From IMG/VR virus record IMGVR_UViG_3300028025_004197, positions 1-22,259 of that record: a stretch of DNA of 22,259 bases; one strand, written 5' to 3'. The position numbers and the translations under genes are program-made. The notes under the pieces are model-generated. The model worked only from the letters and a program-made list of their open reading frames with translations, was not told the origin of the DNA and did no database searches. The stretch comes from a virus. This document shows positions 6,594 to 17,702 of the stretch, in pieces (position 1 is the first letter of the stretch; each line of letters starts with the position of its first letter).

Positions 6594-6758
6594 TTACTTG
6601 CCACAATGATGGCACTCTGGCCGATCCATCTGCTCGCGTATTGTTGCCTTATATGATTTTCGGCAATTGCGGCAATGGATAGTTAACCGTTTTTTCTCGA
6701 TTTCATATTCTAAAATCTGCTCGTCTGTATTTTTAACTTCCAATCGAAGATGGCTCAT
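6594..6758 (-). CDS. Small zinc-ribbon protein, 54 residues
   Basis: The ATG at 6758 overlaps the stop of the preceding minus-strand gene as ATGA. After an acidic N-terminal half there are two Cys-x-x-Cys knuckles: HCRNC (residues 28-32) and CHHC (49-52), followed by GK and the stop. The 16-residue spacing between knuckles fits a single zinc ribbon. It is the last gene of the leftward small-gene chain and faces the end of the rightward lysis transcript. No convincing terminator is visible in the 78 bp between them (6516-6593). The function is unknown; small zinc ribbons often bind nucleic acid or protein. Confidence 0.8.
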   Translation of the reverse strand: MSHLRLEVKNTDEQILEYEIEKKRLTIHCRNCRKSYKATIREQMDRPECHHCGK

Positions 6759-15110: not shown

Positions 15111-15376
15111 GCGCGCCAACCAAAACACAGCGTGATAGGTGGCGCCGTATTGCCGAAATTGGGTGCCTAATATGCGCGCAACCCGCAGAAATCCACCATT
15201 GCTTAACTGGCGCCGGGGGAAGAAAAAACCATGATAAAGTGATAGGCCTTTGCTATCTACATCACCGTGGAAAACAAGGTATCCATTTCATGGGACGCAA
15301 GGCGTGGGCTAGGATTTGCGGCACCGAGCAAGAGCTTTTAGATAAAATTGATTTAATGGTTGCAACTTCCATATAG
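15107..15376 (+). CDS. Ref-like RecA-dependent HNH nuclease
   Basis: This 89-residue protein resembles the C-terminal nuclease part of phage P1 Ref and its short relatives. GCLICAQPAEIHH (residues 19-31) is followed by IGLCYLHHRGKQGIHFMGRKAW (46-67) and CGTEQELL. Zinc ligands are probably C20, C23, C49 and H52 or H53, with H30 and H31 near the active site. Ref-type nucleases cut DNA within RecA filaments. The start overlaps the VRR-NUC gene by 4 bases (ATGA), so the two are coupled. Confidence 0.8.
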   Translation: MSAPTKTQRDRWRRIAEIGCLICAQPAEIHHCLTGAGGRKNHDKVIGLCYLHHRGKQGIHFMGRKAWARICGTEQELLDKIDLMVATSI

Positions 15377-15388
15377 ATTATTTATACT
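15360..15388 (+). promoter_or_regulatory. Promoter for the structured leader and replication genes
   Basis: TTGCAA (15360-15365) and TATACT (15383-15388) have a 17-base spacer. The predicted start near 15395 would give an mRNA with a leader of about 110 bases carrying the three-way junction at 15412-15474. The -35 box lies in the last codons of the Ref-like gene. Confidence 0.6.
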
Positions 15389-15411
15389 GTTTGAAGCGCA
15401 ATAAAAAGCGT

Positions 15412-15499
15412 GGGGTGGCGGAGTTTGCAAGCTCTAGCTGATACATACCTTCCCGGTAATCAGCGTGCCACCCCTATAATCTAGGGAAGGAGGGAAGGT
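15412..15499 (+). promoter_or_regulatory. Structured leader RNA with loop complementary to the ribosome site
   Basis: The outer stem GGGGTGGC (15412-15419) pairs with GCCACCCC (15467-15474). Inside are two hairpins. Hairpin 1 is GAGTT/AGCTC around TGCA (15421-15434). Hairpin 2 is GCTGAT/ATCAGC (15437-15442, 15459-15464), continued after a bulge by TACC/GGTA around the loop TTCCC (15450-15454). The segment ACCTTCCC (15447-15454) is the exact complement of GGGAAGGT (15492-15499), five bases before the start codon of the replication gene. GGGAAGG occurs a second time at 15484-15490. A switch between hairpin 2 and loop/ribosome-site pairing would control translation. It matches no riboswitch class I know. 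Confidence 0.72.
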
Positions 15500-15503
15500 T
15501 GCA

Positions 15504-16133
15504 ATGCAATGGTTTAGATTCTACGGCGACGCCGTTAATGACCCTAAGGTTCAGTCCTTAACGGGTGATCAATTTAAGTTTTGGGTTAACCTTTTATGTG
15601 TTGCCTCAAAAAACAAAGGCACTATAAAAATATCTGAATTACCGTTCACATTAAGAATGGACGAGGCTGCCATTAGGCTCGCTTTAGGCTCGCTCGAGGC
15701 TCTCAATCTCCTCGTCCGAAGCAACCAGCACGCCGACTGTATAACCCCGAACGGCTGGAACAAAAGACAATATAAATCAGACGTCTCCACCGAAAGAGTG
15801 AAACGTTTCAGAAACGTTGCAGAAACGCCCCCAGAACAGATACAGAAACAGAACAGAACCCCTATAGTCCCCAGGGGGGATTTTAAAGCATTTTATTCCG
15901 CCTATCCTAAACGCATTTCACCTAAGGATGCAGAGAGGGCATATCTGAAAGCGTTAAAGTCAGTGGCGCATGAAGAGATAATGGCTGGTGTTATTAAATA
16001 CGCAAGCCATGTGGCTGGAACTGAAAGGCAATACATACAGGCACCAGCGGCATGGCTAAACAAAGGTCGATGGGCGGATGACTATGGCACCCCACAGTCT
16101 GCAATACCCGATTGGATTAAGGCGCAGCGATGA
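15504..16133 (+). CDS. Phage replication initiator/helicase-loader-like protein
   Basis: This 209-residue protein has an N-terminal winged-helix-like region (residues 1-85, MQWFRFYGDAVNDPKVQSL…) and a W-N-K-R-Q stretch followed by STERVKRFR at about 85-103. After a polar linker comes the C-terminal pattern FKAFYSAYPKRISPKDAERAY (127-147), ending in PAAWLNKGRW (181-190). This layout is common in phage replisome-organiser or O-like proteins, which bind the origin and recruit the helicase. The ribosome site AAGGAGGGAAGG is strong but may be masked by the leader RNA. It ends with a 4-base overlap into the primase-helicase gene. Confidence 0.75.
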   Translation: MQWFRFYGDAVNDPKVQSLTGDQFKFWVNLLCVASKNKGTIKISELPFTLRMDEAAIRLALGSLEALNLLVRSNQHADCITPNGWNKRQYKSDVSTERVKRFRNVAETPPEQIQKQNRTPIVPRGDFKAFYSAYPKRISPKDAERAYLKALKSVAHEEIMAGVIKYASHVAGTERQYIQAPAAWLNKGRWADDYGTPQSAIPDWIKAQR

Positions 16134-17702
16134 TAGATCAGCTTTTATCCATTGGCATCCGAATCAGGCATAGCCAAGGAACAAAAAAAACACTTTGCCC
16201 AAAATGCACACCAACAAGGAAAAACAAAGATGACAAAAGCCTCAGCGTCACAATCGAAACAGACTGCATCCTCTACAACTGCCACAACTGCCAATTTTCG
16301 GGACGAGTGGGAAGCGCTAGAAGCTCGGGGGATAAGCCGAGAGTTCGCAGCGAAACTTGGGTTGAGAACTTCAGGCGCAGGAAAACGTGGTAGAATTGAG
16401 ATCCCATATTACCTGAATGGCGAGGAAATTAACTGCAAAACCCGTGGCATAATGGGCGAGAAGTTCTTTTATCAACTGCCTGATAAACAAAAGATTTTTT
16501 ATAACCAAGATATAATTACAGAATGGCAAAAGACAGGCGAGCCTCTTTTAATTTGTGAGGGTGAGATTGATTGCATTTCTGCTTTACAGTGCGGTTATAT
16601 GGCTGTTTCGGTGCCGGACGGTGCGCCTGCGACAAAACTAGGAGATGGGGCGACAAGGAAGTATGAATATCTTGATGGTTTCCCAACTTCTGGCGAGGTT
16701 ATCATCTGCGCGGATGCCGATGGCGCAGGTGAAAACCTGCTTCATGATCTAGCTTTAAGGCTTGGACGCAAGCGCTGCAAATGGGTAAAATATCCTAAAG
16801 GATGCAAGGATTTAAACGATGCTTTACGGCTATTCGGGCAAAAGGGCGTAGACGCCACCATTAAAACTGCCAAATGGGTAGAGATCGACGGGCTATCACT
16901 TATGAGCGAATTGCCTCCACTTTCTATGCCAGAGCACAGGCCAGCTGGCTTTGTTCCACTGAATATCCGCAAGGGTGATTTCTGGATTGTAACCGGCATA
17001 CCTTCAATGGGAAAAACTCAGGTAACAAATTACTTGGCGCACACAGCAGCAACGCAAGGGTGGCATGTTACATTCGCAAGCTTTGAACAGAGGCCACAAA
17101 CACAGCACCGCTATAACTTGCGAAGCCTTTACCTAGACAAGCCCGCAGCAGCTGCAACTGATGATGAGCTGGCGCGCGCCGACAAGTGGATAGACGACCA
17201 TTACAGTTTTATTACCACGCCAAGAGACAGAAACGAAAGCCACGATCTATTTTGGTTGCTTGATAAGATGGCGGCGGCTGTGCATCGTTATGGCGCGGAT
17301 ATGTTTGTAATCGACCCTTGGAATGAGATTCAGCACCAATTTAACAACAAAGAGATGACGGGCACCGAATATATCCGCTTTGCAATTATGGAGTTAAAGC
17401 ACTTTGCAGATGATTACCGGGTGAATATGACAATAGTGGCGCACCCAACAAAGCAACAGAAACAGGACGGCAAGCTAACCGTTCCTACGCTTTATGACAT
17501 TGAAGATTCAAGGCACTGGTATAACAAAGCAGATGTTGGTGCTATTGTTCACCTTCAAGACGATGGTAGCACGTTGCTCAGAGTGGCAAAATCACGATAC
17601 CACGATGATATAGGAAAGACCGGGGACTACATTTTAAGTTACGACACTAAGACTAAGAAATTTGATAAACCAAACCCAATCTATTCAGCTTATCAGGAGT
17701 AA
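16130..17702 (+). CDS. T7-like primase-helicase, frame interrupted at 16295-16298
   Basis: Read with one +1 shift, the product is 523 residues. Residues 1-56 (first frame) form a primase zinc ribbon with C23, C26, C51 and C54. The second frame then continues DEWEALEARGISREFAAKLG, a Toprim domain (EGEID about 143-147, DADGAG 195-200) and a DnaB/T7-type helicase: Walker A GIPSMGKT (289-296), Walker B VIDPW (393-397), and TIVAHPTK with H438. The enzyme primes and unwinds DNA at the fork. The frame changes at TTTT (16295-16298); the first frame stops at 16391-16393. A zinc-less form could start at ATG 16230, behind AAGGAA, by analogy with T7 gp4B. The second frame upstream of that merely shadows the zinc ribbon. 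Confidence 0.85.

Follow-up and report, generated by a model that had tools for sequence, protein, structure and literature searches.

The leader in front of the replication initiator gene of an uncultured virus encodes a candidate RNA structure of high predicted stability, which raises the question of whether this structure controls the initiator and by what mode of action. The window, i.e., the whole stretch of DNA analyzed, corresponds to the complete virus record of 22,259 nt.

Replication module and its leader

The structure lies in a replication module on the + strand, of which the following parts were annotated.

15360–17702 (+): replication module comprising a promoter-like site, a 115-nt leader, the initiator gene, and the primase/helicase gene
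15360–15388 (+): sigma-70-like promoter, TTGCAA-17-TATACT, 23 nt 5′ of the RNA element, with 9/12 consensus positions
15504–16133 (+): replication-initiation protein gene (209 aa), the proposed regulated gene (phrog_270, E = 7.1e-19; phrog_3926, E = 1e-7)
16152–17702 (+): DNA primase/helicase gene of the same module, 3′ of the initiator gene (phrog_239, E = 1.7e-70; Toprim, DnaB_C)

The sequence-only reading had placed the element before a replication gene and had assigned it its own promoter at 15360–15388. The former was borne out by the homology of the initiator to PHROG 270 (7e-19). The latter held in part: the site is there, but it agrees with the consensus at only 9/12 positions, and 1.2 sites of this quality were expected by chance over the 600-nt stretch scanned. 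No intrinsic terminator was found at the window leader, and neither an integrase nor a resolvase was found within the 22-kb fragment.

The element is crossed by an open frame of 24 codons (GTG 15410 to TAG 15484, +). A leader peptide from this frame was judged unlikely because the frame has no SD sequence. Downstream of the initiator gene, the zinc-binding part of the primase (CPKC..CHNC, 16130–16393) and the toprim/helicase part (16152–17702) are encoded in two overlapping frames. The primase is split in the same way in loci L001 (129–446/367–1761) and L002 (3847–4251/4106–5584), and likewise in L004, L005, L006, and L007, which suggests a programmed frameshift or a separate translational start.

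Fold of the element and complementarity of its loop

The element and its putative targets were mapped as follows.

15412–15474 (+): three-way-junction RNA, proposed antisense RNA, 63 nt; −31.2 kcal/mol, z = −4.5; none of 3000 dinucleotide shuffles reached this stability
15412–15419 (+): outer stem P1, 5′ strand GGGGTGGC, pairing with 15467–15474 (paired probability 1.0)
15467–15474 (+): outer stem P1, 3′ strand GCCACCCC, pairing with 15412–15419
15420–15435 (+): hairpin P2, GGAGTT-TGCA-AGCTCT, with the 4-nt loop TGCA
15437–15464 (+): hairpin P3, GCTGAT ... ATCAGC, with a 16-nt loop region containing the antisense sequence
15447–15454 (+): antisense sequence ACCTTCCC in the P3 loop, with its tip UUCCC open
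15484–15490 (+): target site 1, GGGAAGG, 7 nt, complementary to the loop at 7/7 positions
15492–15499 (+): target site 2, GGGAAGGT, 8 nt, the ribosome site of the initiator gene, complementary to the loop at 8/8 positions

The junction, composed of P1 (8 bp), P2 (6 bp), P3 (6 bp), and a 2-nt linker, was reproduced by the MFE fold of the element. Three nested perfect stems in a 63-base junction, and a loop complementary to 15492–15499 and to a second copy at 15484–15490, had been read from the DNA alone; all the stem coordinates proved exact, and so did both complementarities. ACCTTCCC is the exact reverse complement of GGGAAGGT, which directly precedes ATG 15504, and the loop and the RBS are separated by 38 nt on one transcript. 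Of the loop sequence, the fold leaves only UUCCC open, and ACC takes part in an inner helix of 4 bp. Opening these inner 4 bp costs 4.8 kcal/mol, while the pairing of the loop with the RBS yields −12.9 (8 bp) to −15.1 kcal/mol, and P1, P2, and the 6-bp P3 are all kept in the energy calculation. The junction can therefore stay intact during loop–RBS pairing, either in cis or in trans.

TTGCAA at 15425–15430 in P2 also matches TTGCAA at 15499–15504 beside the RBS. Kissing of the P2 loop with the latter site would fit a two-loop antisense RNA and is in collinear order, but the sequence is a palindrome of only 6 nt and was taken as weak evidence.

Significance of the element and searches for relatives

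The 8-nt complementarity to the RBS had a chance probability of approximately 0.01 when considered alone. A junction with an outer stem of at least 8 bp and a loop match of at least 7 nt was obtained in 0/5000 shuffled leaders. When 373 kb were scanned blindly, junctions with a 7-nt loop match downstream occurred at background (45 real and 38 shuffled), and thus, the significance rests on the position at the RBS and on the strength of the stem and fold. The earlier judgment that a tandem ribosome site with a matching loop is unlikely by chance can be set beside this test, in which the joint feature of outer stem and loop match exceeded chance.

The element had also been described as not matching the cores of hammerhead, tRNA, or familiar riboswitch classes, and the search against 4227 Rfam covariance models (including riboswitches, ribozymes, tRNA, and phage leaders) agreed, with no match to the element even at E = 10. 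The leader DNA showed no similarity to phage records, and exact and gapped DNA patterns of the element gave either no matches or only chance matches in viral contigs (the match in L066 was inside a coding gene, and the remaining matches looked like coding sequence). Neither close relatives of the initiator protein nor a close homologue of the element were found in the searches made. Relatives of the helicase, mostly with approximately 30–50% identity, were retrieved from 45 loci, and their leaders were inspected.

Comparison with C4 and CI RNAs

To our knowledge, the C4 and CI RNAs are among the few known phage immunity repressors that are antisense RNA. Most known examples come from phages of enterobacteria and from related phages. 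C4 is excised by RNase P, which cleaves its 5′ end at GGW at the base of stem P1, and its b′ loop covers the RBS (PMC5320573). The CI RNA of the satellite phage P4 pairs with seqA and seqC, thereby stopping the phage's own replication genes in the lysogen (PMC4825925).

In 13 known C4s, the outer stem had 16–18 bp, the linker 7–8 nt, P2 4–5 bp with a loop of 4 nt (deviating by one or two in a few cases), and P3 5–6 bp with an antisense loop of 9–12 nt; there were no nucleotides between P1 and P2. The window element resembles the C4 RNAs of phages P1 and P7 in having an outer stem and two hairpins, a first hairpin with a 4-nt loop sitting directly on the outer stem, and an antisense loop in the second hairpin. 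As in these phages, its targets lie at the ribosome site of the gene that follows on the same transcript, with a promoter (here promoter-like) upstream; c4 of phage P1 is annotated with its targets in the arrangement c4–targets–gene. The three-stem structure of C4, in which the P2 loop is short and the P3 loop large, is thus present, though the outer stem has only 8 bp, and the P3 loop corresponds to a b′ loop complementary to the downstream RBS (ACCTTCCC/GGGAAGGT, 8/8).

The element differs from C4 in its 8-bp outer stem and its 3′ linker of only 2 nt, so that there is no a′ element. An upstream a1/b1-type target copy was also lacking, as no GGGAAGG was found between the promoter and the element. 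The regulated gene would be a replication initiator, whereas C4 acts on icd/ant. There was no similarity in sequence or covariance model: Rfam detected C4 (RF01695) in phage P4 at 74.9 bits, and a trimmed core model built from 12 known C4s recovered phage P4 at 75.6 and phage P1 at 58.1 bits, but did not list the window element even with the filters off. Membership in the C4 family is therefore not supported; the layout and, probably, the mode of action agree. Like P4 CI, the element would be an antisense RNA made from a replication operon's leader. However, CI acts by transcription termination through seqA and seqC, which flank it, while both window targets are downstream, at the ribosome site, with no terminator found.

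Leaders of related replication modules

Thirty-five leaders of related replication modules were tested, for which the gene starts were chosen partly after looking. An antisense-to-RBS feature was identified at P < 0.01 each in the window, L003, L012, L026, and L030, compared with 4 of 522 starts of ordinary genes from these loci, one of the four being the L030 leader itself. The pairing sequences of L003, L012, L026, and L030 are unrelated to that of the window. Most of the 35 leaders showed no such feature.

The architecture was clear only in L012, where the loop CCCCCCAAG can form a 9-nt pair with CTTGGGGGG before ATG 2562, an earlier CTTGGGG provides a second copy, the outer stem has 11 bp, and the junction is very stable (z = −5.2); this contig carries an integrase. 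In L026, the outer stem TGTGGGGC/GCCCCGCA encloses the loop ATCCCTTGTA, which can form a 10-nt pair with TACAAGGGAT, and a second copy of 8 nt (TACAAGGG) precedes ATG 2641. L003 has a 10-nt pair of TCGTTTCCTC with GAGGAAACGA before ATG 2290. In L030, ACCACCTCATTGA and GCTAGATTGCG match CGCAATCTAGCtcTCAATGAGGTGGT before ATG 1983 collinearly over 13 and 11 nt, and this leader is conserved in L034. Two loops of L002 (CCCCTCC and CTGACA) fit TGTCAGGAGG collinearly, which was not significant alone. The folds of L002, L003, L026, and L030 were weak (z = −0.4 to −2.0). Among the loci with an initiator of the L026 type (80 loci, 49 of them non-redundant), the full motif was not enriched (3 hits in the 49 loci and 3 in shuffles).

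Several candidates were not counted, namely the low-P leaders of L038 (a terminator-type hairpin) and L043 (in coding sequence) and the complementarities in L025, which were not collinear. A match of L030 to the C4 model (16.5 bits, E = 0.93) was treated as chance.

Some further features were observed in these loci. The leader of L030 (1790–2010), in which 24 of 26 nt form an antisense copy of its own RBS region, is conserved in L034 (2270–2480); the helicases of both phages match the query at 39–40%. A − strand gene of 225 aa at approximately 1247 in L030 is preceded by a second strong RBS complementarity of 14 nt (CCAGCGGGGTGAGG). In L026, a T6 follows the outer stem (2602–2616), and the two could double as an intrinsic terminator making the 3′ end of the RNA. 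L022, from a phage with a related replication module, contains an Rfam match to skipping-rope RNA (6612–6734, +, 39.6 bits).

Alternative explanations

The main rival to C4/CI-like antisense control is a translational switch in cis, in which the loop would fold back on its own RBS as a pseudoknot, no free RNA would be made, and initiator translation would depend on folding kinetics or temperature. The 38-nt distance between the loop and the RBS on one transcript and their favorable pairing with the junction unbroken speak for such a switch. In the general class of pseudoknot or anti-SD operators in 5′ leaders, too, a leader element pairs with the ribosome site. Against a cis switch, a single loop needs no tandem targets, which are present in the window, L012, and L026, and in its autonomy and high stability the junction is similar to processed antisense RNAs; we regard a cis switch as rather unlikely. 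The tandem targets and the autonomous junction also set the element apart from the above operator class, and no conserved core, ligand, or protein is known for it. The leader could alternatively be an operator for a protein (e.g., in autoregulation by the initiator) or a ligand, in which case the loop/RBS pair would exist in one of the states. Autoregulation would be consistent with the location immediately 5′ of the initiator gene, and proteins or ligands can bind at three-way junctions, but a conserved core is missing (no Rfam class and no relative in the viral contigs searched), and the analogous leaders share a layout and not a sequence, which is the opposite of a conserved binding site. 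This makes an operator quite improbable.

A feature of the DNA, such as an inverted repeat at an origin or operator, or a stable hairpin and a purine-rich ribosome site that coincide by chance would be in keeping with the location in a replication module. Matches to SD sequences arise easily in pyrimidine stretches, as the chance probability of the 8-nt match illustrates, junctions with 7-nt matches are at the background rate elsewhere, and no close homologues were found to show conservation. Against this stand the joint feature, which did not arise in the shuffled leaders, and the recurrence of RBS pairing in other replication leaders well above the rate for genes generally. A DNA feature or coincidence was accordingly considered unlikely.

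Proposed mechanism and implications

The reading with the best support is that translation of the initiator is controlled through the loop/RBS pair. This had already been proposed from the sequence and stands, but the earlier proposal considered only a cis pseudoknot or a ligand or protein, and C4/CI RNAs are a closer precedent. By analogy with these, the element may be a C4/CI-type antisense regulator of the replication initiator, a proposal that we hold to be evenly balanced between right and wrong. It is favored because the fold and pairing jointly exceed chance, because pairing to the RBS gains more energy than opening of the inner helix costs, because the layout matches the known C4 cores and the phage P1 arrangement, and because related replication modules carry unrelated antisense/RBS pairs. 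It is weakened by the lack of C4 homology, the 8-bp stem, the 2-nt linker, and the lack of an integrase or resolvase in the 22-kb fragment, as well as by the mostly weak folds of the analogues, the many negative leaders, and the lack of enrichment in the 49 initiator loci.

For a C4/CI-type regulator, we infer the following course. A 63-nt RNA would be transcribed from the leader promoter and fold into the outer stem and two hairpins, and the UUCCC tip within ACCUUCCC would pair with the purine-rich ribosome site GGGAAGGAGGGAAGGU of the initiator message. The pairing would block initiator translation, and the primase/helicase operon might in consequence be terminated prematurely. As in phages P1 and P4, processing would free the RNA from the transcript that encodes it and allow it to act in trans, so that replication would be held down and immunity to the same phage type conferred.

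It is possible, though doubtful, that C4-like antisense immunity RNAs are numerous in the replication-module leaders of diverse uncultured phages and have only the architecture and the matching loop/RBS pairs in common. Such RNAs would be invisible to sequence and covariance searches because their pairing sequences would change fast, setting immunity groups. If the same device indeed operates at the initiator of unrelated environmental phages, RNA-based immunity would be broader than Rfam shows, and a rule of loop/RBS complementarity would detect such RNAs where homology fails.
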